From Crenobacter luteus (GTDB taxonomy: Bacteria; Pseudomonadota; Gammaproteobacteria; Burkholderiales; Chromobacteriaceae): a DNA stretch of 64,000 nucleotides. The stretch is taken from positions 1 to 64,000 of the forward strand of contig NZ_SLXG01000014.1 in the NCBI RefSeq assembly GCF_004345725.1, given 5' to 3'. The translations under genes were made by a program, and so were the position numbers. Positions 4,785-46,340 of this stretch are shown piece by piece; the first letter of the stretch is position 1, and each line of letters opens with the position of its first letter. The notes beneath the pieces are model-generated. The model saw only the letters and a list, made by a program, of their open reading frames with translations. It was not told the DNA's origin and made no database searches.

Positions 4785-4955
4785 GGCAAGCACTTGGGCC
4801 GCCCCGAGAAAGCTGCCGTTGAGCAGGTGGCGGAGCCGAGGCGGGCAGGGGTCAGTATTTCGCAGGCGGCAGCCCGGCTCGGCGTCCCGGAAAGTACGGT
4901 CAAGGCTCTCACTTCCGAGACTCGCCGGAGCGGAATATTAGACACGATTGTCTAA
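4785..4955 (+). pseudogene. C-terminal remnant of a serine site-specific recombinase
   Basis: After an in-frame stop at 4782-4784 the frame reads GKHLGRPEKAAVEQVAE and then GVSISQAAARLGVPESTVKA, ending at TAA 4953-4955. A GKxLGRP hinge followed by a helix-turn-helix is the C-terminal DNA-binding tail of Gin/Hin/Tn3-resolvase-type serine recombinases. The catalytic domain with its serine is missing and no start codon is suitable, so it is a relic. Such invertases flip tail-fibre segments in Mu- and P2-like phages, fitting the prophage setting. A transposase OrfA remnant is the alternative. Confidence 0.5.
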
Positions 4956-4963
4956 TATTCCGC
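4930..4963. repeat. Perfect 15-bp inverted repeat, candidate recombination or attachment site
   Basis: GCGGAATATTAGACA (4930-4944) and TGTCTAATATTCCGC (4949-4963) are exact inverse complements separated by CGAT. The site overlaps the end of the recombinase remnant and lies between the prophage and the tRNA. It is notably AT-rich for this genome. No T-run follows, so it is not an obvious terminator. A recombinase-binding or prophage junction role is inference. Confidence 0.55.
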
Positions 4964-4979
4964 CTAAAACCCCGCACGC

Positions 4980-5010
4980 AAAACGGGCCTTGCATTGCTG
5001 CAAGGCCCGT
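4980..5010 (-). terminator. Intrinsic terminator of tRNA-Thr
   Basis: A perfect 12-bp stem (ACGGGCCTTGCA at 4983-4994, TGCAAGGCCCGT at 4999-5010, loop TTGC) followed on the minus strand by TTTT. It lies 7 nt downstream of the tRNA 3' end. Confidence 0.85.
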
Positions 5011-5016
5011 CGTATC

Positions 5017-5092
5017 TGGTGCCGGCGAAAGGAGTCGAACCCTCGACCTTCTGATTACAAGTCAGCTGCTCTACCAACTGAGCTACGCCGGC
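5017..5092 (-). tRNA. tRNA-Thr (anticodon UGU)
   Basis: Minus-strand sequence folds as a tRNA: acceptor GCCGGCG (from 5092) pairs with CGCCGGC (ending 5021). The D arm contains GCTCAGTTGGTAGAGC, the anticodon arm is CTGACTTGTAATCAG (anticodon TGT), and the T arm contains GGTTCGACTCC. Discriminator A and an encoded CCA (5019-5017) end the gene. It borders the prophage remnant, and tRNA genes are common phage attachment sites; no second att copy is visible in the window. Confidence 0.97.
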
Positions 5093-5103
5093 GAAGGAGG
5101 CGG

Positions 5104-5133
5104 ATTATCGCCCAGTTACGTCATATGCCGCAA
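5104..5133 (-). promoter_or_regulatory. Candidate promoter of tRNA-Thr
   Basis: On the minus strand TTGCGG (5133-5128) and GATAAT (5109-5104) are 18 bp apart, with the -10 box 11 nt before the tRNA 5' end. The -35 partly overlaps the intergenic end of the neighbouring basic-protein gene. Matches are fair rather than strong. Confidence 0.45.
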
Positions 5134-5136
5134 GCC

Positions 5137-5877
5137 TCAGCGCCCGGATTTGCTCACCCGGTGCAGGGTCTGCACCCTTGACTTGGCCGTTGCGGCCGAC
5201 CTGGCCGGGCGCTGCTTCTGTTGCGGGCGCACCTTTTGGCTGCGCACGACACGTTTGGGCTTGGCCGCGACGCGCGCCGGCGTGGCCGATTTCTTTTGCA
5301 TGCTTGCCGGGCCGGCCGCGCGCAGCTTGCGCGCCGTCGCCTTTTGGGTGGCGGTCCCCCGGTTGCCGATGGCGTGCGTGGGGCGGGCGGTGCGCTTCGA
5401 CGCCTGCAGCGGGCGGGCGGATCCCGCGGCCTTCGACGTCGGCTGCTTGCCCTCGTGGCGGCGGGACGTCGCCTGGGTGGCGATGCGGCCGCGCTTGCCG
5501 TCCTTCGCCTTGATCGCGACCGGACGGCTAACGCCTCGCGCTCTCGGTTTGAGCGACGGACTCACGCTCGACGGTCGTTTCTTGCCGGCCACCGGGCGGG
5601 GCGAGGCCTTGTGGTCGCGTTTTGTTGCCCGGTCGGCCCGTTTCGGGCCCGACGTGGTCGTCCGGACGGGCCGGGGCTCGGCTTGCACCTTGCGAACCGG
5701 GGTGGCCGCCGGCTGGGGCGCCGGGGCAGCGGCCCGGTTGGCCTTGGCGCGCGCCGGCGCTCTGGGCTGGAAGTCGCCAGGCAGCGGCGCGTCCTCGAGG
5801 GTGGCCTGGGCCGGTGCGGCAAGGCAGAGGCCGAGCAGCCCCAGCGCGCACAGGCGTCGGAATGCGTTGAAAGTCAT
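5137..5877 (-). CDS. Exported Ala/Arg/Lys-rich basic protein of unknown function
   Basis: 246 residues from ATG 5877, which gives a clean signal peptide (FRRLCALGLLGLCLAAPAQA, cut after AQA near residue 25). After a short acidic stretch the mature part is low-complexity: Ala, Arg, Lys, Pro, Thr and Ser dominate, with histone H1-like KK/AxKP patterns and no cysteine. The predicted charge is strongly positive. No domain is recognised. It could bind nucleic acid, lipopolysaccharide or peptidoglycan outside the inner membrane. It is a single gene converging on the tRNA. Confidence 0.7.
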   Translation of the reverse strand: MTFNAFRRLCALGLLGLCLAAPAQATLEDAPLPGDFQPRAPARAKANRAAAPAPQPAATPVRKVQAEPRPVRTTTSGPKRADRATKRDHKASPRPVAGKKRPSSVSPSLKPRARGVSRPVAIKAKDGKRGRIATQATSRRHEGKQPTSKAAGSARPLQASKRTARPTHAIGNRGTATQKATARKLRAAGPASMQKKSATPARVAAKPKRVVRSQKVRPQQKQRPARSAATAKSRVQTLHRVSKSGR

Positions 5878-6015
5878 GATGGGGGCGTAGTCGTATACAA
5901 TCGGCAATTACAGGATGGGCTGTGTTTTTTATATTAACATGGAAAGGCTTTGCGCCCGACTGGGCGCAGCCCATGAGAATCGATACCGATCGACGAATTA
6001 CGAGGGGGAATCCGC

Positions 6016-6807
6016 ATGATTTTGCAAAAGAAATGGGTACTTGCCGGCGTGGTGGCCGCGGCGCTCGCCGTGACGGCCTGCAGCAAGAAAGAGGAAGCGC
6101 CGGCTGCCGGTGCGGCGGGCGAGGCGCGCGAATACATCGTCGGCAGCGACGCCGCGTACGCGCCGTTCGAGTTCCAGAACGACAAGAACGAAGTGGTCGG
6201 CTTCTCGGTCGAGGTGCTGTCCGCGGTGGCGGAAAAGGGTGGCTTCAAGGTCCGCTTCCTGAACACGCCGTGGGAGGGCATTTTCGCAACGCTTGACCAG
6301 GGCGACCGCGACATCATTTCCTCGTCGGTGACCATTACCGACCAGCGCAAGCAGAGCATGGACTTTTCCGAGCCTTACTTCGAGGCGCGCCAGCTGATCG
6401 CCGTCGGCAAGGGTGTCGGCGACGTCAAGTCCTTCCAGGACCTCAAGAACAAGAAGGTATCGGTGCAGACCGGCACCACCGGCGACGAAGTGGTCCAGAA
6501 GCTGCTCGGCAAAACCAGCCCGAACATCAAGCGCTTCGAAAGCATGCCGCTGGCGCTCAAGGAGCTCGAAAGCGGCGGCGTGCAGGCGTCGGTCGGCGAC
6601 AACGGCGTGGTGATCAACTACGTGAAGAACAACCCGGGCAGCGGCATCGTCACCGTCGAGGACGCGCAGACCTTCGCCCCCGAGTTCTACGGTTTCGCGG
6701 TGAAAAAAGGCAATACCGAGCTGCTGGAGAAGATCAACAAGGGGCTCGCGGCGATCAAGGCCGACGGCACCTACGACCAGATCTACAAGAAATATTTCGG
6801 TAACTGA
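6016..6807 (+). CDS. Amino-acid ABC transporter substrate-binding lipoprotein
   Basis: 263 residues. A lipoprotein signal ends in LAVTAC with the lipid-bearing Cys at 22, followed by a flexible Ala/Glu-rich linker. The body is a family-3 solute-binding protein: YAPFEFQNDKNEVVGFSVEV near 50, DIISSSVTITDQRK near 97 and DFSEPYFEARQLIAV near 115. It captures polar amino acids in the periplasm and hands them to the permease encoded 123 nt downstream. A terminator lies between the two genes, so binding protein is probably made in excess. Substrate (Gln, Arg or His type) cannot be assigned. Confidence 0.9.
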   Translation: MILQKKWVLAGVVAAALAVTACSKKEEAPAAGAAGEAREYIVGSDAAYAPFEFQNDKNEVVGFSVEVLSAVAEKGGFKVRFLNTPWEGIFATLDQGDRDIISSSVTITDQRKQSMDFSEPYFEARQLIAVGKGVGDVKSFQDLKNKKVSVQTGTTGDEVVQKLLGKTSPNIKRFESMPLALKELESGGVQASVGDNGVVINYVKNNPGSGIVTVEDAQTFAPEFYGFAVKKGNTELLEKINKGLAAIKADGTYDQIYKKYFGN

Positions 6808-6815
6808 GCAGGGCC

Positions 6816-6847
6816 CCTTCCCCGGCAAACGCCGGGGAAGGTTTTTT
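6816..6847 (+). terminator. Terminator between binding-protein and permease genes
   Basis: Perfect 11-bp stem CCTTCCCCGGC (6816-6826) / GCCGGGGAAGG (6831-6841), loop AAAC, followed by TTTTTT. It would lower permease expression relative to the binding protein. Confidence 0.9.
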
Positions 6848-6930
6848 CATGACCGCCCGTCCGCCGCGACGGGCCAACGGCGCGCCCGCCGGGCGACGCA
6901 TGACAAGACGATGTTCGTAGGGAGGACATC

Positions 6931-7674
6931 ATGGATTTTCGCTGGCAGATGATCGTCGAGTATCTGCCCCTGTTCATCGACGGGATCAAGATGACGCTGG
7001 GCATCACCTTGATCGCGATCTTCTTCGGGGTGCTGATCGGCCTTTTCATGGGGGTGGCCAGGTTGGCCGAGGCGCGCCACGGCGCGCTCAAATGGGCGCT
7101 CAAGCTCGGCGTGCGCTGGCCGGCCGGCGCCTACGTCACCTTTTTCCGCGGCACGCCGCTGTTCGTGCAGATTCTGCTGGTCCACTTCGCGCTGATGCCG
7201 ATGCTGGTGCACCCGACCGACGGGCTGTTGATCGACGGCGACTTGGCGCGCGACATCCGCCAGAACTACGGCGCCTTTTTCTCTGGCTTGTTGGCGCTGA
7301 CGCTGAACGCCGGCGCCTACATCACCGAGATCTTCCGCGCCGGCATCCAGTCGATCGACAAGGGCCAGATGGAGGCGGCGCGCTCGCTCGGCCTCTCCTA
7401 CGGCAAGGCGATGCGCTTCGTGGTGATCCCGCAGGCCTTCCGCCGCATGCTGCCACCCCTGGGCAACGAGGCGATCATGCTGCTCAAGGACAGCTCGCTC
7501 GTGTCGGCGATCGGCCTTGCCGAGCTGGCGTTCGCCGCGCGCACCGTCGCCGGCGTCTACTCGCGCTACTGGGAGCCGTACCTGACGATCTCCTTCGTCT
7601 ACCTCGCGCTGACCATTCTGATGGCCTGGGGCATCGCCCACCTCGAGACGCGGCTGAAGATCGCGACGCGCTGA
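6931..7674 (+). CDS. Amino-acid ABC transporter permease (GlnP/HisM family)
   Basis: 247 residues with about five membrane segments (13-37, 70s-90s, 110-130, 180s and 215-235). The cytoplasmic EAA loop EAARSLGLSYGKAMRFVVIP near residue 150 is the contact site for an ATPase. The family forms homo- or heterodimers in the inner membrane with a family-3 binding protein, here the upstream lipoprotein. ATG follows GGGAGGA. No ATP-binding subunit is encoded nearby in the window, so it must come from elsewhere or be shared. One copy of the repeated 10-mer (7062) encodes LAE. Confidence 0.88.
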   Translation: MDFRWQMIVEYLPLFIDGIKMTLGITLIAIFFGVLIGLFMGVARLAEARHGALKWALKLGVRWPAGAYVTFFRGTPLFVQILLVHFALMPMLVHPTDGLLIDGDLARDIRQNYGAFFSGLLALTLNAGAYITEIFRAGIQSIDKGQMEAARSLGLSYGKAMRFVVIPQAFRRMLPPLGNEAIMLLKDSSLVSAIGLAELAFAARTVAGVYSRYWEPYLTISFVYLALTILMAWGIAHLETRLKIATR

Positions 7675-7693
7675 GGTCACGCACTTCGCCGCA

Positions 7694-7718
7694 GCCGGCC
7701 TTCGGGCCGGCTTTTTTC
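7694..7718 (+). terminator. Terminator after the permease gene
   Basis: GCCGGCC (7694-7700), loop TTCG, GGCCGGC (7705-7711), then TTTTTT. Confidence 0.88.
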
Positions 7719-7740
7719 TTGCCGGCCGGCGGGGGCGGGC

Positions 7741-7770
7741 CTGACCGGCAGGGCCGCGCCGTGCTAAGAT
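7741..7770 (+). promoter_or_regulatory. Candidate gyrA promoter
   Basis: CTGACC (7741-7746) and TAAGAT (7765-7770) with an 18-bp spacer. The -10 is preceded by TGC, an extended -10 pattern. The expected transcript start is about 33 nt before the gyrA ATG. Confidence 0.5.
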
Positions 7771-7809
7771 CGCAGGTATTTGCCATCAAGAGCGATTGCC
7801 CATTTACCC

Positions 7810-10391
<2,582 letters not shown>

Positions 10392-10395
<4 letters not shown>

Positions 10396-10865
10396 GCGTG
10401 AACACCCCCGCCAACCGCGAAGTATTCGAGACGCTCGCGGCGGTGTTCGCCAGGCTGCCGCACTGCAAGACGCTCGGCTTCGAATACGTCGGCCTCGACG
10501 GCGTCAAGCCGACGCTGAAGGTCGAATGGCGGCCCGACCTCGTCGGCAATCCGGCGACCGGCGTGGTGCACGGCGGCGTGATCACCTCGCTGGTCGACAC
10601 CACCAGCGCGATCGCGGTCTCCGCAAGGTTGGCCGAGCTCGAGACGATCGCCACGCTCGACTTGCGCATCGACTACCTGAAGGCCGCGACGCCGGGGCGA
10701 GCGATCTTCTGCACCGCCGAATGCTACCGGCTCGCCGGCCAGGTCGGCTTCACGCGCGCCGTCTGCTATCACGACGACGCGAACGATCCGATCGCGCACG
10801 GCGTCGCCACCTTCATGCGCGAATCGACCCCGCTGCCGATCTGGCGCGACGGAGGGACGAAATGA
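10392..10865 (+). CDS. PaaI-family hotdog thioesterase (first of a pair)
   Basis: 157 residues from ATG 10392, overlapping the gyrA stop as ATGA. The hotdog signature [19 protein letters not shown] (near 55-75) contains the HGG turn that positions acyl-CoA and the acidic residue of PaaI-type thioesterases. Such enzymes hydrolyse aromatic or medium acyl-CoA. No signal peptide or membrane segment is seen, so it is cytoplasmic. It is translationally coupled to both neighbours. Physiological substrate unknown. Confidence 0.85.
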
Positions 10866-11308
10866 GCGCCTTCATGGAACGATTGCTCGAGCTGCGCGAT
10901 CAGAAGCGCTACCGGGACATCATCGACGCGATTCCGTACGCGCGGCTGATGGGCGTCGAATTCGCCGAGGACGAGACGGGCGGGCTGCTGTTCTCCTTGC
11001 CGTTCGACGCGAAGAACGTCGGCAACACCGTGCTGCCGGCGCTGCACGGCGGGCTGATCGGCGGCTTCCTCGAGAACGCCGCGCTGATCCACCTGATGTG
11101 GAACCGCGAATCGCTCGAGACGCCGAAGATCGTCGACTTCTCGCTCGACTACCTGCGCTCCGGGCGCGCCCGGACGCTGTACGCCCGCTGCACGATCACC
11201 AAGCAGGGCAAGCGCGTCGCGCACGTGCTGATCGAGGCCTGGCAGGACGAGCCGAGCCGGCCGGTCGCCGTCGCGCGCGCGCACTTCCTTTTGCAAACCG
11301 CTGCCTGA
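10862..11308 (+). CDS. PaaI-family hotdog thioesterase (second of a pair)
   Basis: 148 residues starting at ATG 10862, overlapping the previous stop. The motif PALHGGLIGGFLENAALIH (near 60-78) matches the PaaI hotdog centre, with Glu in place of the first copy's Asp. The two proteins are diverged paralogues and may form a heteromeric double-hotdog enzyme, which is inference from their coupling. The gene ends 19 nt before serC, so the gyrA-thioesterases-serC run is probably one transcript. Confidence 0.83.
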   Translation: MSAFMERLLELRDQKRYRDIIDAIPYARLMGVEFAEDETGGLLFSLPFDAKNVGNTVLPALHGGLIGGFLENAALIHLMWNRESLETPKIVDFSLDYLRSGRARTLYARCTITKQGKRVAHVLIEAWQDEPSRPVAVARAHFLLQTAA

Positions 11309-11327
11309 CACGTTGGAGACAGACAAG

Positions 11328-12410
11328 ATGGCCAAGGTGTACAACTTTTCCGCCGGCCCGGCGGTCCTGCCGCACGAAGTGCTGGCCGAAGCGCAGAGCG
11401 AGATGCTCGACTGGCACGGCTCCGGCATGTGCGTGATGGAAATGAGCCATCGCGGCAAGGAGTTCATGGAGATCATCCACGACGCCGAGCACGACCTGCG
11501 CGAACTCATGGGCATCCCGTCGAACTACAAGGTGCTGTTCCTGCAAGGCGGCGCCAGCCTGCAGTTCGCGATGGTGCCGCTCAACCTGCTGGGCGACAAG
11601 GCCGGCTTCGACCTGGTCGACACCGGCCACTGGTCCAGGCTCGCCGCCAAGGAAGGGCGCCGCTACGGCAAGGTCAACGTCGTCGCCAGCAGCGAAGACC
11701 GCCGCTACAGCTACGTGCCGCGCCAGGACGCATGGCAGTGCGACCCGAACGCCGCCTACCTGCACTACACCTCGAACGAGACCATCGGCGGCCTGCAGTT
11801 CGACTTCGTGCCCGAGGTCGACGTGCCGCTCGTGTGCGACATGTCGTCCGACCTGTTGTCGCGCGAAGTCGACGTATCCAAGTTCGGCCTGATCTACGCC
11901 GGCGCGCAAAAGAACATCGGCCCGTCCGGCCTGACGCTGGTGGTGGTGCGCGAAGACCTGCTCGGCCGCGCGCGCGCCGACCTGCCGACCATGCTCAACT
12001 ACCAGACCCACGCCGACGCCGACTCGATGTACAACACGCCGGCGACCTACCCGATCTACATCGCCGGCCTGGTGTTCAAGTGGATGAAGGAGCAGGGCGG
12101 CGTCAAGGCGATGGCGGCGCGCAACACCGAGAAGGCCGGGCTGCTCTACCACGCGATCGACGCCAGCGACGGCTTCTACACCACCCATATCGAGGCGCCG
12201 TTCCGCTCGCAGATGAACGTGGTGTTCCGCCTGAAGGACGAGGCGCTCGAGGACACCTTCCTGTCCGAGGCGAAAAAGAACGGCCTCGTGCAGCTCAAGG
12301 GTCACCGCGCCGTCGGCGGCATGCGCGCGTCGATCTACAACGCGATGCCGATCGAGGGCGTCAAGCAGCTGGTGCACTTCATGCTCGACTTCGCGCGCCA
12401 GCACGGCTGA
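11328..12410 (+). CDS. serC: Phosphoserine aminotransferase
   Basis: 360 residues, the typical length. It is a PLP enzyme of fold type I converting 3-phosphohydroxypyruvate to phosphoserine, and also serving pyridoxine synthesis. Visible landmarks are YNFSAGPAVLP at the N-terminus, GGASLQF near 78, the PLP-lysine segment AGAQKNIGPSG near 193-203 and GGMRASIYNAMP near 330. ATG 11328 is chosen because the family begins just before YNFSAGPA; an ATG 15 nt upstream lacks that fit. pheA follows after a terminator. Confidence 0.97.
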   Translation: MAKVYNFSAGPAVLPHEVLAEAQSEMLDWHGSGMCVMEMSHRGKEFMEIIHDAEHDLRELMGIPSNYKVLFLQGGASLQFAMVPLNLLGDKAGFDLVDTGHWSRLAAKEGRRYGKVNVVASSEDRRYSYVPRQDAWQCDPNAAYLHYTSNETIGGLQFDFVPEVDVPLVCDMSSDLLSREVDVSKFGLIYAGAQKNIGPSGLTLVVVREDLLGRARADLPTMLNYQTHADADSMYNTPATYPIYIAGLVFKWMKEQGGVKAMAARNTEKAGLLYHAIDASDGFYTTHIEAPFRSQMNVVFRLKDEALEDTFLSEAKKNGLVQLKGHRAVGGMRASIYNAMPIEGVKQLVHFMLDFARQHG

Positions 12411-12428
12411 GCCCGCGGCAAGGGGCGG

Positions 12429-12438
12429 CTCGGCCAAC
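12429..12438 (+). repeat. Intergenic copy of the CTCGGCCAAC word after serC
   Basis: CTCGGCCAACCTTGCG, carrying the extended 3' CTT, lies 18 nt after the serC stop and just before the terminator hairpin. Confidence 0.9.
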
Positions 12439-12444
12439 CTTGCG

Positions 12445-12474
12445 AACCCGCCGGCATGCCGGCGGGTTTTTTTG
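12445..12474 (+). terminator. serC terminator
   Basis: AACCCGCCGGC (12445-12455) pairs with GCCGGCGGGTT (12458-12468), followed by a T-run through 12473. The 12475-12659 interval beyond holds no gene I can support. Confidence 0.9.
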
Positions 12475-12659
12475 TCGCCCGCGGGACGATCCGGGCGCAA
12501 ACTGGCTGCCGCGCGTTCAGGCGCAGGGGGCGTCGTCCTCGTGCCGCCCGCGAGCGCGCCGGCACCGGGAATTTCTCGCGACACGCCTTGCGACGACCGG
12601 CCATCTCGCGGAAACTTAGTCGATTGCCAAGGCCACCTGCCATTTGAAAGACTGAGAAC

Positions 12660-13733
12660 GTGTCGGAAGAACTGCTAAAACAACATCGGGACGCCATCGA
12701 CAGCATCGACGCCCAGGTTCTGAAACTGCTCAACGAGCGCGCCGAGCACGCGCGCACCATCGGCGAGATCAAGGGGAGCGGTGTCGTCTACCGTCCCGAG
12801 CGCGAGGCGCAGGTCCTGCGCCGCATCAAGGACATCAACCCGGGTCCCTTGCCGGGCGAATCGGTCGCGCGGCTGTTCCGCGAGATCATGTCCGAGTGTC
12901 TGGCGCTCGAACGGCCGCTGTCCATCGCCTTCCTCGGCCCCGAGGGCACCTTCACCCAGCAGGCGGCGGTCAAGCACTTCGGCCACGCCGCGCATACCGT
13001 CGCCTGCGCGTCGATCGACGAGGTGTTCCGCCTGGTCGAATCGCGCCAGCTCGACTACGCCGTCGTGCCGGTCGAGAACTCGACCGAGGGCGCGGTCGGC
13101 CGCACGCTCGACCTCTTGGTCAACACCCCGCTGAAGATCTGCGGCGAGGTGGTGCTGCGCATCCACCACCACCTGCTGCGCAAGACGCCGGACTTCGACG
13201 GCGTCCGCCGCGTCTACTCGCACGCGCAGTCGCTCGCGCAGTGTCACGAATGGCTGAACAAGAACCTGCCGGCCGACGTCGAGCGCGTGTCGGTGGCGAG
13301 CAACGCCGAAGCGGCGCGGCTGGCCAGCGAGGACGACAGCTTCGCCGCGATCGCCGGCCAGTCGGCCGCCGAGCGCTACAGCCTCGTCAAGCTGGCCGAG
13401 AACATCGAGGACGAGCCGAACAACACCACGCGCTTTCTGGTGCTCGGCCACCAGGACGTCGCGCCCAGCGGCCAGGACAAGACCTCGATCGTCGTCTCGG
13501 CGCCCAACCGCCCGGGCGCGGTGCACTCGCTTCTGGCGCCGATGGCCGAGAACGGCGTATCGATGACCAAGTTCGAATCGCGCCCGTCGCGCGCCGGCCT
13601 GTGGGACTACGTGTTCTTCATCGACCTCGAGGGCCATCACGGCGACGCAGCGCTGCAGCAGGCGCTCGACGGCCTCGCGGCGCGCGCCGCCTACGTCAAG
13701 GTGCTCGGCTCCTACCCGGTGGCGGTGCTCTGA
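12660..13733 (+). CDS. pheA: Bifunctional chorismate mutase / prephenate dehydratase
   Basis: 357 residues from a GTG start. Residues 1-85 are an AroQ chorismate mutase helix bundle (IDSIDAQVLKLLNERAEHA, then REAQVLRRI). Residues 90-270 are the prephenate dehydratase, opening IAFLGPEGTFTQQAA and ending with the catalytic NTTRFLVLG. Residues 280-357 are an ACT domain with FESRPSRAG, the phenylalanine-binding feedback site. The enzyme makes phenylpyruvate from chorismate. An upstream ATG was not found in a suitable place. It follows the serC terminator and needs its own promoter. Confidence 0.96.
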   Translation: MSEELLKQHRDAIDSIDAQVLKLLNERAEHARTIGEIKGSGVVYRPEREAQVLRRIKDINPGPLPGESVARLFREIMSECLALERPLSIAFLGPEGTFTQQAAVKHFGHAAHTVACASIDEVFRLVESRQLDYAVVPVENSTEGAVGRTLDLLVNTPLKICGEVVLRIHHHLLRKTPDFDGVRRVYSHAQSLAQCHEWLNKNLPADVERVSVASNAEAARLASEDDSFAAIAGQSAAERYSLVKLAENIEDEPNNTTRFLVLGHQDVAPSGQDKTSIVVSAPNRPGAVHSLLAPMAENGVSMTKFESRPSRAGLWDYVFFIDLEGHHGDAALQQALDGLAARAAYVKVLGSYPVAVL

Positions 13734-13797
13734 CCCGGCGCGGCTCCGCTCGATCGCGCCGGCGGGGGCTTTCCGCGCCGGCGGCACAAACAGCTTT

Positions 13798-14397
13798 ATG
13801 GGAAACAGGATGGAACTGGAATCGATCTGCGTCTTCTGCGGCGCCAATCCGGGCGTGCGCCCCGAATACCGCGCCGCCGCCGAGGCCTTCGGCCGGCGCG
13901 TCGCCGACGAGGGGCTGACGCTGGTCTACGGCGGCGGCAACGTCGGCCTGATGGGCGCGGTCGCCGACGCGGCGCTAGCCGCCGGCGGGCGCGTCAAGGG
14001 CGTCATCCCCGGCTTTCTGAAGGACAAGGAAGTCGCGCACGGCGGACTGAGCGAGCTGATCGTCACCGAGTCGATGCACCAGCGCAAGGCGCAGATGGCC
14101 GCGCATTCGGACGCTTTCGTCGCGCTGCCGGGCGGCTTCGGCACCTTCGAGGAGCTGTTCGAGATGGTCACCTGGTCGCAGCTGCACCTGCACAAGAAGC
14201 CGGTCGCGCTGTTGAACCTCAACGGCTTCTACGACCCCTTGATGGCGCTGATCGACAAGGGCATCACCGAGGGCTTCATCCGCGAGGACAACCGCGGCCT
14301 CGTCACCGCCCACCCGGACATCGACGACCTGTTCGCGGCCCTGCGCACCTACCACCATCGCGCGGCCGACCGCTGGCTGCCGACGGTCGCGGGCTAG
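13798..14397 (+). CDS. LOG-family (TIGR00730) nucleoside monophosphate phosphoribohydrolase
   Basis: 199 residues from ATG 13798, with an alternative ATG at 13810. The signature PGGFGTFEELFE near residue 108 and the nucleotide-binding YGGGNVGLMG near 44 define the LOG/YgdH-like family, which cleaves ribose 5-phosphate from nucleoside monophosphates such as AMP or cytokinin nucleotides. It is cytoplasmic, and bacterial roles are poorly defined. It lies 64 nt after pheA with no clear terminator between, so may be co-transcribed. Neither start has a strong ribosome site. Confidence 0.9.
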   Translation: MGNRMELESICVFCGANPGVRPEYRAAAEAFGRRVADEGLTLVYGGGNVGLMGAVADAALAAGGRVKGVIPGFLKDKEVAHGGLSELIVTESMHQRKAQMAAHSDAFVALPGGFGTFEELFEMVTWSQLHLHKKPVALLNLNGFYDPLMALIDKGITEGFIREDNRGLVTAHPDIDDLFAALRTYHHRAADRWLPTVAG

Positions 14398-14489
14398 CGC
14401 GCCGGCCAAGTCGGGCGGCGGCTTCGCCGTGACCGTCGCCCGCATCAAGCGTGGCCCACCTTTTTCTTCACCCCAAGAAGGAGAACCCC

Positions 14490-15173
14490 ATGTCCGAACA
14501 ATCCGTCGCCGTGGTGCTGTCCGGCTGCGGCGTGGTCGACGGCGCCGAGATCACCGAGGCGGTCGGCCTCTTGATCGCGCTGTCCCAGGCCGGCATTCCC
14601 TACGTCTGCTATGCGCCCGACCGGCCGCAGATGCACGTGTTCGACCACGCCAAGGGCGAGGACGGGGACGGGGCGCGCAACATCCTGACCGAGTCGGCGC
14701 GCATCGCGCGCGGCAAGATCGCGCCGCTGTCGCGGCTCAAGGCGTCCGAGCACGCGGCGGTGCTGTTCCCCGGCGGTTTCGGCGCGGCCAAGAACCTTTC
14801 CACCTTCGCGACCGACGGCCGCGACGCACGCCTCTACGACGACGTGCGCACCGTCGCGCTCGACTTCATCCTCGAGCAGAAACCGCTGCTCGCGCTGTGC
14901 GCGGCGCCGCTGGTGCTGGCGCTGGCCGCGCGCGACGCCGGTATCCAGGGCGCGAAGCTGACCGTCGGCACGCACGCCGAGGGCGCGGCGCTGGTCGAGG
15001 CGCTGGAGGCCTGGGGCCAGACCCACGTCGAGACGCCGGTCGACGCCGCCTGCGTCGACGAGGCGCACCGTTTCGTCACCGCGCCGGCCTATATGTACGG
15101 CGCGGCCACCCCGGCCGAGGTATTCGCCTCGTGCCAGGCGGCCGTCGCGGCGCTCAAGCCGCTGCTGCACTGA
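14490..15173 (+). CDS. elbB: ElbB-type DJ-1/PfpI family glyoxalase
   Basis: 227 residues from ATG 14490, which has AAGGAG 7 nt upstream; an in-frame ATG further up is not supported. It opens VVLSGCGVVDGAEITEA and has LFPGGFGAAKNLSTFA near 88 and ALCAAPLVLALA near 133, the nucleophile-elbow cysteine of the ElbB (isoprenoid biosynthesis-associated glyoxalase) branch. ElbB proteins convert glyoxal to glycolate. The isoprenoid connection in the name is historical and weak. Confidence 0.92.
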   Translation: MSEQSVAVVLSGCGVVDGAEITEAVGLLIALSQAGIPYVCYAPDRPQMHVFDHAKGEDGDGARNILTESARIARGKIAPLSRLKASEHAAVLFPGGFGAAKNLSTFATDGRDARLYDDVRTVALDFILEQKPLLALCAAPLVLALAARDAGIQGAKLTVGTHAEGAALVEALEAWGQTHVETPVDAACVDEAHRFVTAPAYMYGAATPAEVFASCQAAVAALKPLLH

Positions 15174-15215
15174 GCCGCCGGTCCGTTCAACCCGGGTGCG
15201 CAAAGGAGAAGAACC

Positions 15216-15674
15216 ATGGCCGAGGAAGTGATCAGGCTGACGCTGACGCAGCGTCAGGACTACCAGTTCGACACCCGCTTCGACGGCGGCCAGTCGCTGG
15301 TCGCCGACGAGCCGCCGCCGCTGGGCGGCGGGGCAGGGCCGGCGCCGACGCAGCTGCTGCTCGCGTCGGTGGCCAACTGCCTGACGGCGAGCCTGCTGTT
15401 CGCGCTGCGCAAGTACCGCGAACCGGACGCACCGCTGTCGACCGCGGCCGAGTGCGAGGTCGACCGCAACGAGCGGGGCCGCCTGCGCGTGACCGGCATC
15501 GCCGTCACGCTGCGGCTCGGCCTGCCGGCGCACGCCTACGGCAAGCTCGACCGCATCCTGGCCAGCTTCGAAGATTTCTGCACCGTCACGCAGAGCGTCG
15601 CCGCCGCGATCCCGACCCGGGTGACGGTGGTCGATTCGCTCGGCGCCGTCGTGAAGGTCCCCGAGACGGTCTGA
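15216..15674 (+). CDS. OsmC/Ohr-family peroxiredoxin-like protein
   Basis: 152 residues with an AAGGAG ribosome site. The two family cysteines are visible: SVANCLTASL near residue 53 and DFCTVTQSV near 122. These reduce organic hydroperoxides in OsmC/Ohr proteins. The spacing and the Pro-rich APTQLLLASV segment fit the YhfA-type OsmC group rather than classic Ohr. Cytoplasmic. It lies 42 nt after elbB, suggesting one detoxification transcript, and ends at a strong terminator built from two copies of the repeated word. Confidence 0.88.
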   Translation: MAEEVIRLTLTQRQDYQFDTRFDGGQSLVADEPPPLGGGAGPAPTQLLLASVANCLTASLLFALRKYREPDAPLSTAAECEVDRNERGRLRVTGIAVTLRLGLPAHAYGKLDRILASFEDFCTVTQSVAAAIPTRVTVVDSLGAVVKVPETV

Positions 15675-15693
15675 GCGGCCGGCGGCGTCAAGT

Positions 15694-15735
15694 AAAAAGC
15701 TCGGCCAACCTTGCGAGGGTTGGCCGAGCTTTTTC
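15694..15735. terminator. Bidirectional terminator made of two inverted CTCGGCCAAC words
   Basis: A perfect 17-bp stem: AAAAAGCTCGGCCAACC (15694-15710) with GGTTGGCCGAGCTTTTT (15718-15734), loop TTGCGAG. It has A/T runs on both sides and lies between two converging genes (OsmC and DUF484). The stem core is an exact inverted pair of the window-wide 10-mer. Confidence 0.95.
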
Positions 15736-15750
15736 GTGACCGGACGCCGT

Positions 15751-16401
15751 TCAGCGCGCGTCGCGTTCGAGCACGCGCAACAGCGCGGCCGAGACCATCT
15801 CGCCGATCTGCGCGAGGTACTGGGTGTGCATCGCGCGGGTGAACCGGTCGGCGTCGCCGCTGGCGAGCACCAGCAGGCCGAAGGGTTCGCGGCCCGGCGC
15901 GCGCAGCGGCAGCTGGGCGAACGATTCGAGCACCGGCTGCGCCGGGAACCAGCCGATCACCTCGTCGCTGGCGTAGGGGCCGCAATAGGGCGCCGACAGA
16001 TTGCGCGCGTGCTGGCGGGTCGCCTCGCGCGTGCAGCACAGCGCGGGGAGGGCGGCTGCGGCCGGGTGCCACAGCCGCAGCGCGACGCGGTCGAGTCCGA
16101 AGGCGTCGGCGAAGGTCGACGTCAGCGCCTCGACCAGCGCCGACGGCTCGTCCTCGGCCAACAGCGCCAGCGTCAGCCGGTGCAGGCGGCCGAGCGTGCG
16201 GTCGTTCGCCTCGCCGTGCGCGAGCAGTTGCGCGAGCCGGCCCTCAAGCTGGCGCGTCTTGTCGCGCAGCTCGAGCAGCTGCCGCTCGGCCAACGGTACG
16301 ACGACCCGCTCGGCGGCCGGCCTGAGGCCGAAACGCGCCGCATGCGCCTGCAGGAAGGCCGGATCGGCCTCGAGAAACGCCAACACCTCGTCGCTATGCA
16401 T
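15751..16401 (-). CDS. DUF484 family protein (GAF-like)
   Basis: 216 residues from ATG 16401; the frame is open upstream only because it shadows dapF. The family is recognised by its N-terminus (VLAFLEADPAFLQAHA), a coiled-coil with RQLLELRDKTRQLEGRL near 40-57, and a C-terminal GAF-like domain ending GEMVSAALLRVL. It is commonly the gene next to dapF and a Xer recombinase in Proteobacteria; here dapF is adjacent but xerC is not in the window on this side. Function unknown. Two repeat copies (16153, 16285) each encode LAE. Confidence 0.88.
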   Translation of the reverse strand: MHSDEVLAFLEADPAFLQAHAARFGLRPAAERVVVPLAERQLLELRDKTRQLEGRLAQLLAHGEANDRTLGRLHRLTLALLAEDEPSALVEALTSTFADAFGLDRVALRLWHPAAAALPALCCTREATRQHARNLSAPYCGPYASDEVIGWFPAQPVLESFAQLPLRAPGREPFGLLVLASGDADRFTRAMHTQYLAQIGEMVSAALLRVLERDAR

Positions 16402-16433
16402 CGTCACCCCGCTTTGCGCTGAGCCGCGCCCGT

Positions 16434-17264
16434 TCAGAACTCGACTTCGCCGGAGAACACCGTCACCGCCGGACCGGTCATGTAGACCGGCTGGCCGGGG
16501 CCGGCCCAGGAAATGCTCAGGTCGCCGCCGCGCGTGTGGACCTTGACCGTCTCGTCCAGCAGGCCGCGGCGGATGCCGGCGACCACCGCCGCGCAGGCGC
16601 CGGTGCCGCAGGCCAGCGTCTCGCCGGCGCCGCGCTCGAACACGCGCAGGCGGATCTCGTCGCGCGCGACGACCTGCATGAAGCCGGCGTTGACGCGCTC
16701 GGGAAAGCGCGGGTGCGACTCGATCGCCGCGCCGACCGCGCCGACCGGCGCGGCGTCGACGTCGTCGACCACCTGGACCGCGTGCGGATTGCCCATCGAC
16801 ACCACGCTGATCTGCCAGGTGCCGCCGGCCGCCTCGAGCGGGTAGCTCACCGCCTCGGCGTCGGCGACGAAGGGAATCTCGGCCGGCGCCAGGCGCGGCA
16901 CGCCCATATCGACCTTCACGCTGCCGTCGGCCTCCAGCTGCGGCACGATCACGCCGCGCGCCGTCTCGACGCGGATCGCCGGCTTGTTGGTCAGCCGCTG
17001 CTCGGTGACGAAGCGCGCGAAGCAGCGCGCGCCGTTGCCGCACTGCTCGACCTCGCCGCCGTCGTTGTTGAAGATGCGGTAGCGGAAGTCGTTGTCGGCG
17101 TCACGCGGCGCCTCGACCAGCAACAACTGGTCGAAGCCGATACCGAAGTGCCGGTCGCCCAGCTCGCGGATGCGCTCGGGGCTAAGGGTCACGGTCTGGC
17201 GCACGCCGTCGATCACGACGAAGTCGTTGCCGAGGCCGTGCATCTTGCTGAATTTGAGTTTCAT
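16434..17264 (-). CDS. dapF: Diaminopimelate epimerase
   Basis: 276 residues, usual length. It interconverts LL- and meso-diaminopimelate for lysine and peptidoglycan. The catalytic cysteine pair is present: [11 protein letters not shown] near residue 73 and [12 protein letters not shown] near 220, in a PLP-independent two-fold symmetric enzyme. It opens [15 protein letters not shown], confirming the start. DUF484 follows 32 nt downstream in the same direction. Confidence 0.97.
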
Positions 17265-17336
17265 GCTGTGCTTGTGAAGGGGGAATCGCGGATCGGCATC
17301 ATATTAACACCCCGCATACTGCCGTCATCCGGAAAA

Positions 17337-17366
17337 TTGACACCCTTACTGATCGATAAGTAAAGT
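17337..17366 (+). promoter_or_regulatory. Candidate promoter and operator of the TetR operon
   Basis: TTGACA (17337-17342) and TAAAGT (17361-17366) are 18 bp apart. Inside lies an inverted repeat TTACT (17346-17350) / AGTAA (17359-17363), a plausible self-operator for the TetR protein just downstream. The predicted start of transcription falls almost on the ATG at 17373, so the mRNA may have little or no leader. Confidence 0.5.
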
Positions 17367-17372
17367 GAAGTC

Positions 17373-17969
17373 ATGACGACGATGCAGACAGCCCCCGCCG
17401 CGCGCGACGACACCCGCGGCAAGATTCTCGACCTCGCCGAGCTGCTGTGGCTCGGACGCGGCTTCAACGGCTTCAGCTACCAGCACATCAGCCGCGAGCT
17501 CGGCGTGAAAAACGCCGCGATCCACTACCACTTCCCGCACAAGGTCGACCTCGGCGTCGAGCTGGTACGCCGCTACCGCCGGCGACTGGCGCGCTACATC
17601 GAGGCGGCGGCCGAGCTCGACGCGCGCGGCCAACTCGAGCGCTTCATCGCGCTGTCCGACGCCTACTATCGGAACGAACAGCAGATCTGCCCGTCGGGCA
17701 GCCTGTCGGCCGAGTTCCACACGCTGCCGGACGCGCTGAAGGCCGAGGCGGCGCTGTTCGTCGCCGAGATGCGCGCCTGGGCGCTGGCCCTTGTGCGGCG
17801 CGGGCGCGAGGAGGGCGCTTTCGCGCCGTCCTCGTCCGACGCGGAGGCCGCCGATCTGCTCTACGCGTCGCTGCAGGGCGCGCTGCAACTGGCGCGCATG
17901 GCGCCGGACCTGCTGCCCCAGGTCAAGTCGGCGCTGCGCGCGCAGCTGGGCATTCCCCCGGGCGCCTGA
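17373..17969 (+). CDS. TetR/AcrR-family transcriptional repressor
   Basis: 198 residues. An N-terminal helix-turn-helix (KILDLAELLWLGRGFNGFSY then HISRELGVKNAAIHYHFPHK) is followed by a ligand-binding helical domain. The subfamily often controls acyl-CoA or solvent-related genes. It heads an operon with a DUF4442 hotdog gene 54 nt downstream and a crotonase-family gene, so an acyl-CoA inducer is inferred. Confidence 0.9.
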   Translation: MTTMQTAPAARDDTRGKILDLAELLWLGRGFNGFSYQHISRELGVKNAAIHYHFPHKVDLGVELVRRYRRRLARYIEAAAELDARGQLERFIALSDAYYRNEQQICPSGSLSAEFHTLPDALKAEAALFVAEMRAWALALVRRGREEGAFAPSSSDAEAADLLYASLQGALQLARMAPDLLPQVKSALRAQLGIPPGA

Positions 17970-18023
17970 AACGCCCTCCCGAAAAAAACCGACAAGAAAA
18001 ACACCGTCCACACGAGGATATCC

Positions 18024-18539
18024 ATGAACCGAAGCCCGAACCGCATGAGCCGGCTCGCCGCGCGCTGCAACGCGCTGCCGCCGTCGTTGCGCAGCCCCAT
18101 CCTGACCCGCCTGTTTGCGCGGCTGGTGCCGTTTCTCGGCACCGCGTCGTTGCGCTTCGACCGCGTGACGCCGCACCAGGTGGTGGTATCGATCCGAAAC
18201 CGCCGCAAGGTACAGAACCACATCAAGGGCGTGCACGCGGCGGCGATGGCGCTGTTGGCCGAGACCGCGACCGGTTTCGTCGTCGGCATGAACGTGCCCG
18301 ACGACAAGCTGATGCTGCTCAAATCGATGCGGGTCAACTACCAGCGGCGCTCGCAGGGCGACATGCGCGCGGTCGCGACGCTCAGCGAGGAACAGATCGA
18401 CGGTTTCTTTCGCGCCGACAAGGGCGAGGTGACCGTGCCGGTAGTCGTCACCGACGCCAGCGGCGAGGCGCCGATCGCCTGCGAAATGGTATGGGCGTGG
18501 GTTCCGAAGAAACGCGAGCGGACCGGGGAGGGGGCATGA
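18024..18539 (+). CDS. DUF4442 hotdog-fold thioesterase-like protein
   Basis: 171 residues. The centre HIKGVHAAAMALLAETATGF (near 73-92) and SMRVNYQRRSQGDM match DUF4442, a hotdog family related to PaaI thioesterases. ATG is preceded by GAGGA at 8 nt. Its stop overlaps the next start (ATGA). It probably hydrolyses an acyl-CoA produced or consumed by the crotonase partner. Contains one repeat copy at 18254, encoding LAE. Confidence 0.82.
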   Translation: MNRSPNRMSRLAARCNALPPSLRSPILTRLFARLVPFLGTASLRFDRVTPHQVVVSIRNRRKVQNHIKGVHAAAMALLAETATGFVVGMNVPDDKLMLLKSMRVNYQRRSQGDMRAVATLSEEQIDGFFRADKGEVTVPVVVTDASGEAPIACEMVWAWVPKKRERTGEGA

Positions 18540-19348
18540 AAATGGAATGGCAGAGTCTGGAAGTCGCACGTCACGGCGCCGTGGCTTGCGTGACGCTGAA
18601 CCGGCCGCGGCAGGCCAACGCGCTCGACGCGACGCTGTGGCGTGAACTGCGCGAGGCGATGGAGTGGTGCGACCGCAGCGCTGACGTCCGCGCCGTGGTG
18701 CTCGCCGGACACGGCCGGCATTTCTGCGCCGGTCTCGACCTTGCCATGCTCGCCGGGCTGTCGGCGCGGATAGCCGACCCTTGCGGCGGCCGTCAGCGCG
18801 AGAAACTGCTGGCCGAGATCGAGGCGCTGCAGGCCAGCGTCAACAGCCTCGAGGCGTGCCGCAAACCGGTGATCGCCGCCGTGCACGGCGCCTGCGTCGG
18901 CGGCGGCCTCGACATCGCGCTGGCGGCCGACATCCGCTACGCGAGCGAGGACGCGTTCTTCGGCGTGCGCGAGGTGGCGATGGGCATGGTCGCCGACGTC
19001 GGCACGCTACAGCGCCTGCCGCGCGTGGTCGGCGAAGGCGTGGCGCGCGAATGGGCGTACACGGGCCGCGACGTGACGGCGGCGGAAGCCTTCGCCGCGA
19101 AACTGGTGAACCGGCTCGCGGCGGACCGCGACGCCGTCGTCGCCGCCGCGCTGGACACCGCCAGCCAGATCGCCGCGCGTTCGCCGCTGGCGGTGCGCGG
19201 CACCAAGCGCGTGCTGAACTACAGCCGCGACCACGGCGTACGCGACGGCCTGGCGTTCGTCGCGCAATGGAACGCGGCGATGCTGTTGTCCGAAGATTTG
19301 GCCGCCGCGGCGACCGCGGACCGGCAGGCAGCGACGTTCCGCGACTGA
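18536..19348 (+). CDS. Enoyl-CoA hydratase/isomerase (crotonase family)
   Basis: 270 residues from ATG 18536, overlapping the previous stop. It has the oxyanion-hole segments HFCAGLDLAMLAGL near 61 and HGACVGGGLDIALAADIRYA near 120. VREVAMGMVADVGTLQRLPR near 146 includes the Glu and Asp placement of dienoyl-CoA isomerase-like (ECH1) members. A beta-oxidation role in unsaturated fatty-acid breakdown is therefore favoured over simple hydration. It is the last gene before dif. Confidence 0.88.
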   Translation: MKMEWQSLEVARHGAVACVTLNRPRQANALDATLWRELREAMEWCDRSADVRAVVLAGHGRHFCAGLDLAMLAGLSARIADPCGGRQREKLLAEIEALQASVNSLEACRKPVIAAVHGACVGGGLDIALAADIRYASEDAFFGVREVAMGMVADVGTLQRLPRVVGEGVAREWAYTGRDVTAAEAFAAKLVNRLAADRDAVVAAALDTASQIAARSPLAVRGTKRVLNYSRDHGVRDGLAFVAQWNAAMLLSEDLAAAATADRQAATFRD

Positions 19349-19361
19349 AGCCGCGCCCAGT

Positions 19362-19392
19362 ACCCGGCCGTTTGACGAAACGGCCGGGTTTT
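19362..19392 (+). terminator. Terminator of the TetR-crotonase operon
   Basis: ACCCGGCCGTTT (19362-19373) pairs with AAACGGCCGGGT (19378-19389), loop GACG, then TTTT. Confidence 0.88.
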
Positions 19393-19456
19393 CGGCATCT
19401 TGAGCACGATTTTCGCGTCGGAAGAGGGGTTTCTACCACCGCGCGGCGTATATTCT

Positions 19457-19484
19457 AGTTCGCATAATTTATATTATGTTAGAT
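19457..19484. other. dif: Chromosomal dif site (XerC/XerD recombination site)
   Basis: A 28-bp site in the 405-bp gene-free gap 19349-19753. Left (XerC) arm AGTTCGCATAA, centre TTTATA, right (XerD) arm TTATGTTAGAT. E. coli dif has arms GGTGCGCATAA and TTATGTTAAAT around TGTATA, giving 24 of 28 identical bases. From memory the Neisseria dif shares the whole XerC arm. It stands out as an AT-rich patch. XerCD acts here, under FtsK control, to resolve chromosome dimers, so this marks the replication terminus. The rest of the gap shows no gene. Confidence 0.93.
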
Positions 19485-19753
19485 TTTGAGGTGCATGCTT
19501 AAAGCGACGATTGCCGTCATTGCCGCGACCAGCTGCGGCAACGCGGCATCCAGACCATGAGGGATTGGCAGAAACAGCAACCGGATTTGTTCAAAAACGC
19601 GTTCGCAATCGTTTGGGACTGGACGACCCCGGCAAAACCAGGCGCGCACGACTGGCCGCGGCCATGGTCTAAACTTCACCAAAAGCCAAGGTCGAATTGG
19701 CAGGAGTCCGGGAATTTGTCGTCCGGCGCAGGCCGGACGACGGGAGAAAGACC

Positions 19754-19957
19754 ATGAACGCACGCAAACAGGCCGGCTGGTATACCGGCACGCTGATGTT
19801 CACCCTGATCATGGCCGTGGTGCTGTTCGTCGCCCAGCCGTGGATCCCGCTGGCGCTGCTGGCCACGCTGGCGGTGTTCGGCGTCGTCGCGGCCGTCAAT
19901 CACGGGATCGACTCGTGGAAACGGCATCATCCCCACGACAGGACGCCGGTCCATTGA
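19754..19957 (+). CDS. Small two-helix membrane protein
   Basis: 67 residues from ATG 19754 with GGGAGAAAG upstream. Two hydrophobic helices (about 12-27 and 31-48) are followed by a His-rich basic tail SWKRHHPHDRTPVH. No family is recognised. It stands alone between dif and a terminator made of the repeated word. Confidence 0.6.
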   Translation: MNARKQAGWYTGTLMFTLIMAVVLFVAQPWIPLALLATLAVFGVVAAVNHGIDSWKRHHPHDRTPVH

Positions 19958-45224: not shown

Positions 45225-46340
45225 ATGAAATTCCTTACGCCCCAACCTTCGCTTACGCCCGCCGGCACCCCGCACGCAAAGACCGCGCTGATCGGCGCGC
45301 GCGACGACGCCGAAGCCGTCGCGCTCTGGTTGGCCGAACACCACGATTCGCCGCGCACCCTCGCCAGCTACCGCAAGGAGACCGAACGCTTCCTGCTGTG
45401 GTTGGCCGAGCGCGGCAAATCGCTGTCCGGCGTGCTGCGCGAAGACGTGCTCGCCTACCAGGCTTTTCTCGCCGACCCGCAGCCGGCATGGCGCTGGGTC
45501 GGGCCGAGCCGGCCGCGCGGGCACGCGGAATGGAAGCCGTTCGGCGGCCCGCTGTCGGCCGCCAGCGTGCGCCACAGCCTGACGGTGCTCGGCGCGCTGT
45601 TCGCCTACCTGAACGACGCGGCCTACCTGGCGGGCAACCCCTTCCGCCTGAAGAAGCGGCGGCAGGCCGCGCCGCGCGCCGCCGGCGTCGAACGCCACCT
45701 CGACCGCGACTGCTGGCAGGCGGTGCTGGCCGCGCTCGACGCGCTGCCGGCCGGCACGCCGCGCGAACGCGACCACGCCGAACGCGCGCGCTGGCTGTTC
45801 GCGCTGCTCTACCTGTCCGGCGCGCGGCGCAGCGAGATCGCCGGCGCGAAAATGGGCGACTGGTTCGAGCGGCGCGGCCGCTGGTGGTGGCGCATCCACG
45901 GCAAGGGTGGCGTCGTCGCCGACGTGCCGGTGTCCGACGCGCTGTTCGCCGCCCTCGTCCGCTACCGCGCCGGGCTCGGCCTCGCGCCGCGGCCGCTGCC
46001 CGGCGAGGACGTGCCGCTCGTCTGCCGCGTCACCGGACAGGGTGCGCGTCGCTTCGCGCCGCTGTCGGACAAGGCGATCTACCTGATCGTCAAGACGGTG
46101 TTCGCGCGCGCCGTCGAGGTCGCGCCGGCCGACAAGCGCGACACGCTCGCCGCCGCGACGACGCACTGGCTGCGCCACACCGCCGCCAGCCACCAGCTCG
46201 ACGCCGGCGTGCCGCTGCTGCTGGTCAGCCAGAATCTGCGCCACGCCAGCCTGCAGACGACGCGCCGCTATCTGCATAGCGAGGACGACGCGCGCCACGA
46301 CGCGAGCCGCGGCCTCGACTGGCGGCTGCCCGAACCCTGA
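45225..46340 (+). CDS. Tyrosine recombinase (phage-integrase family)
   Basis: 371 residues from ATG 45225. A SAM-like N-terminal core-binding domain (TLASYRKETERFLLWLAERG near 45) precedes the catalytic domain. Catalytic residues visible: Arg in SGARRSEIAGAK near 205, His-Arg in THWLRHTAASHQ near 313, His in NLRHASLQTTRRYLH and Tyr in RRYLH. No tRNA or phage gene is adjacent, and both neighbours are housekeeping genes. It may be an Xer-like host enzyme or an orphan integrase; it is about 70 residues longer than XerC/D. Repeat copy 45401 encodes LAE. Confidence 0.87.
   Translation: MKFLTPQPSLTPAGTPHAKTALIGARDDAEAVALWLAEHHDSPRTLASYRKETERFLLWLAERGKSLSGVLREDVLAYQAFLADPQPAWRWVGPSRPRGHAEWKPFGGPLSAASVRHSLTVLGALFAYLNDAAYLAGNPFRLKKRRQAAPRAAGVERHLDRDCWQAVLAALDALPAGTPRERDHAERARWLFALLYLSGARRSEIAGAKMGDWFERRGRWWWRIHGKGGVVADVPVSDALFAALVRYRAGLGLAPRPLPGEDVPLVCRVTGQGARRFAPLSDKAIYLIVKTVFARAVEVAPADKRDTLAAATTHWLRHTAASHQLDAGVPLLLVSQNLRHASLQTTRRYLHSEDDARHDASRGLDWRLPEP

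Follow-up and report, generated by a model that had tools for sequence, protein, structure and literature searches.

The window analysed here, a 64,000-nucleotide stretch of Crenobacter luteus DNA, belongs to a contig of 70,490 bases (C14) in a draft genome of 57 contigs. Some 19 kb from the left end of this contig, positions 19457-19484 of the plus strand read AGTTCGCATAATTTATATTATGTTAGAT, a 28-mer whose sequence and coordinates are exact in the window. It falls within a 405-bp gap between a gene of the enoyl-CoA hydratase family and a small membrane-protein-like ORF, in agreement with an earlier note on this DNA that had placed it in a gene-free gap. Measured over 100-bp windows, GC content near the site is about 43-49%, compared with about 68% for the window as a whole. 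The part of the gap to the right of the site (19485-19753) has a GC content of about 55-60% and is unaligned to the stretches compared from G001, a congeneric genome that is complete in a single contig of 3.27 Mb. The features of the locus are as follows:

4843-18532, plus strand: KOPS-type octamers (GGGNAGGG) left of the site, four on the plus strand (4843, 15331, 16045, 18525) and one on the minus strand (6815)
16434-17264, minus strand: dapF-like gene of the conserved XerC-side block, named from a reading of its sequence, with a 90.6% identical ortholog at the same place in G001
18539-19348, plus strand: gene of the crotonase/enoyl-CoA hydratase family, XerC side of the site (NF004794, 357 bits), with an ortholog at the same place beside the G001 dif
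19349-19753, no strand: intergenic, locally AT-rich gap that holds the site, delimited from the sequence, its ORFs and local GC
19457-19467, plus strand: XerC-binding arm, AGTTCGCATAA, identical to the XerC arm of Neisseria meningitidis dif and to that of G001
19468-19473, plus strand: central hexamer TTTATA, identical in G001 and one base (position 13) away from the Neisseria TGTATA
19474-19484, plus strand: XerD-binding arm, TTATGTTAGAT, matching the Neisseria arm TTATGTTAAAT at 10 of 11 positions
22799-62851, minus strand: KOPS-type octamers right of the site, eight on the minus strand (22799, 24276, 30291, 39992, 45121, 51717, 58208, 62844) and three on the plus strand (25368, 36014, 39110)

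The 28-mer has the layout of proteobacterial dif sites, with an 11-bp XerC arm, a 6-bp centre and an 11-bp XerD arm (AGTTCGCATAA-TTTATA-TTATGTTAGAT). It matches the dif sequence of N. meningitidis MC58 tabulated by Carnoy and Roten (AGTTCGCATAATGTATATTATGTTAAAT; PMC2731167) at 26 of 28 positions: the whole XerC arm, the length of the centre and 10 of the 11 XerD-arm bases are common to both, and C. luteus has T for G at position 13 and G for A at position 26. The earlier note had reported that the centre and one XerD-arm base depart from Neisseria, which holds for these two positions, with position 13 as the only difference inside the centre. The E. coli dif has the same arrangement and differs at positions 1, 4, 13 and 26; its score of 24 of 28, recomputed here, is the figure given previously. 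From base composition, about 6e-7 chance matches of 24/28 to the E. coli site are expected per genome, and about 1e-10 matches of 26/28 to the Neisseria site. No match was found in dinucleotide-shuffled versions of the window.

The site is also unique. Searched with up to three mismatches allowed, the genome (2.86 Mb in 57 contigs) returned a single match, and still a single one when the centre and the outer bases were left free; the single copy anticipated by the earlier note was thus found, and the genome as assembled holds no better dif elsewhere. With a relaxed pattern, exactly one comparable site is present in 54 of 61 genomes of the family.

The position of the site relative to replication signals is clearest in G001, where we read GC skew and KOPS, the motifs that orient FtsK, from 20-kb samples around the chromosome and from a contiguous stretch of 440 kb. 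The G001 dif (AGTTCGCATAATTTATATTATGTTATTT) lies at 2,710,859 on the minus strand; it has the first 25 bases and the XerC-side neighbouring genes in common with C. luteus, and differs by TT in place of GA at positions 26-27 and in its XerD-side DNA. In the 20-kb samples, skew is positive and KOPS are mostly on the plus strand from about 1.65 to 2.7 Mb; from 2.8 Mb through the start of the record, skew is mostly negative and KOPS are mostly on the minus strand. The flip from mostly positive to negative skew occurs at about 2.71 Mb, and cumulative GC skew over the 440-kb stretch peaks at 2.69-2.72 Mb. KOPS number 28 plus and 5 minus to the left of dif, and 4 plus and 21 minus to its right (Fisher p = 1.4e-7). 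The site falls in the 10-kb interval between the cumulative KOPS maximum (2,702,634) and the next minus-strand KOPS (2,712,516).

The C. luteus draft displays the same KOPS switch, more weakly. Because the draft contig holds only 19 kb to the left of the site, where local GC skew is flat, the reversal of skew in this genome is not directly readable; the reversal that the earlier note expected at the site is seen in the complete G001 chromosome. KOPS on the contig are distributed 4 plus to 1 minus on the left and 3 plus to 8 minus on the right, a bias that is not significant alone (p = 0.077); a looser octamer, GGGNRGGG, picked post hoc, gives p = 0.005. Synteny with G001 places another contig, C27, which carries five plus-strand KOPS, no minus-strand KOPS and positive skew, putatively just upstream of C14 and in the same orientation. 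Adding this contig brings the counts to 9 plus and 1 minus on the left versus 3 plus and 8 minus on the right (p = 0.006). Strong KOPS polarity also occurs elsewhere in the genome, with 33 plus and 3 minus on contig C1. The terminus placement proposed in the earlier note holds clearly for the site in G001, and the C. luteus contigs agree with it more weakly, through KOPS polarity.

Gene order adds a conserved place. The G001 dif is flanked by the same XerC-side genes (dapF-like, TetR-like, thioesterase-like and enoyl-CoA hydratase-family), whose proteins are 78-91% identical, and this synteny runs without a break until it ends some 160 bp short of the site. The XerD side of the window has a mosaic structure; its blocks lie in G001 at 2.49-2.50, 2.67-2.69, 2.76 and 2.79-2.80 Mb, to the left and to the right of the G001 dif. 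This suggests several inversions about the terminus, since repeated inversions of this kind would give such a pattern. The mosaic runs from window position 19732 to the end of the contig.

Sequence match, single copy, conserved place and KOPS switch together uphold the proposal of a chromosomal dif site: the 28-mer at 19457-19484 is real and almost certainly the dif of C. luteus, with a probability that we put at about 0.97. It pins down the replication terminus of the genome. It is a dif of an ordinary, well-known kind with a minor genus-level variant.

The genome encodes the corresponding machinery. XerD is on contig C3 (TIGR02225, 331.6 bits for an equivalog cut-off of 329.6) and XerC on contig C28, where the untrimmed ORF has TIGR02224 as its best family and scores slightly under the cut-off (316 bits versus 335). 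Two FtsK translocases with a gamma domain are present, on contigs C22 and C27. G001 also has two different FtsK-gamma translocases, at 2690053 and 2731884, each about 21 kb from dif, one to its left and one to its right. A tyrosine recombinase encoded in the window at 45231-46337 (plus strand), 26 kb from the site, was considered as XerC or XerD and rejected as either: it scores 73 bits to TIGR02224, against the cut-off of 335, and the real XerD and XerC lie on C3 and C28. It is kept in G001 (2757981), and a similar tyrosine recombinase occurs there at 2702079, about 8 kb from dif.

By analogy with E. coli, the 28-mer would be expected to bind the two recombinases and to undergo strand exchange in an FtsK-dependent manner. 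When sister chromosomes cross over an odd number of times, a chromosome dimer would arise; FtsK at the septum would track KOPS to the terminus and activate XerD on the right arm, and XerC would then complete the exchange at the left arm, converting the dimer into two monomers. With this site, standard XerCD-FtsK dimer resolution would be confirmed in another proteobacterial genus, which beyond annotation is of little value.

Two other readings of the 28-mer have to be weighed. One takes up the integrated IMEX-type element raised in the earlier note: the 28-mer would be the attL or attR end of such an element, inserted by XerCD, rather than a plain dif. The gene order on the XerD side, unlike that of G001 from the site onward, the unusual outer XerD arm and the inovirus-like element that adjoins the G001 dif could all be taken in this sense. 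However, an element of this kind should have a second dif-like site at its far end, and the partner is absent: the next best sequence in the contig matches 14 of 22 arm positions (the other-strand reading of the site itself excluded), and the genome-wide search with up to three mismatches found no second copy. An intact IMEX is unsupported because the contig contains no second dif-like site flanking any element. The divergent right side is made up of blocks that in G001 flank the terminus on either side, a pattern expected from inversions around it, and the ORFs immediately right of the site (19557-19757, plus strand, and 19479-19763, minus strand) match no phage family in PHROG, so that a phage remnant at this place was rejected too. 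The IMEX-end reading, to which the single copy leaves little room, is very unlikely, and such an end would in any case still hold a working dif. The other reading, a chance or relic dif-like sequence devoid of function, has a negligible probability: at most about 6e-7 matches are expected per genome, the site occurs once per genome across the family (54/61), and its counterpart in G001 sits at the switch of skew and KOPS.

The element beside the G001 dif is a 7.1-kb stretch (2703276-2710400) located 0.5 kb from the site on its XerD side. Two copies of TTTGACATTATAAA, a sequence resembling a reversed XerD arm, delimit it and occur nowhere else in that genome; the stretch carries a phage-type regulator and a gene similar to RstB of CTX phage. 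It looks like a degraded, Xer-integrated, inovirus-like phage (IMEX-like), with its other genes as cargo.

Variation of the dif itself is confined to few positions. At position 13 the genus Crenobacter (C. luteus and G001) has T, where the family's other genera carry A, C or G; no base of the central hexamer varies more from species to species (PMC2731167), so the central variant is a difference of the expected kind. The TTTATA centre is frequent outside Crenobacter, with 58 stretches in an exact-pattern scan of genome contigs, including Undibacterium, Succinivibrio, Thioglobus-type symbionts and Neisseria weixii; the GAT ending is absent from all these other TTTATA-centre sites. The XerD arm is TTATGTCAAAT in most of the family and TTATGTTATTT in G001. 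Full 28-mers listed for the family end in CAAAT, with the genus Crenobacter as the exception (TAGAT here, TATTT in G001), and the base found here at position 26 is unlike that of every listed family member outside the genus. The lineage variant suggested by the earlier note is borne out to this extent: the position-26 base, in the outer XerD arm, is probably genus-level, because the sister species likewise lacks the AAT ending. The outer arm of the genus (GAT here, TTT in G001, AAT elsewhere among the listed family) might conceivably derive from an old Xer-dependent phage integration in an ancestor, in which the phage arm replaced that of the host dif and the element was then lost here and decayed in G001, a scenario that we regard as improbable. 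A mildly useful detail is that the XerD arm naturally tolerates a change at position 26.
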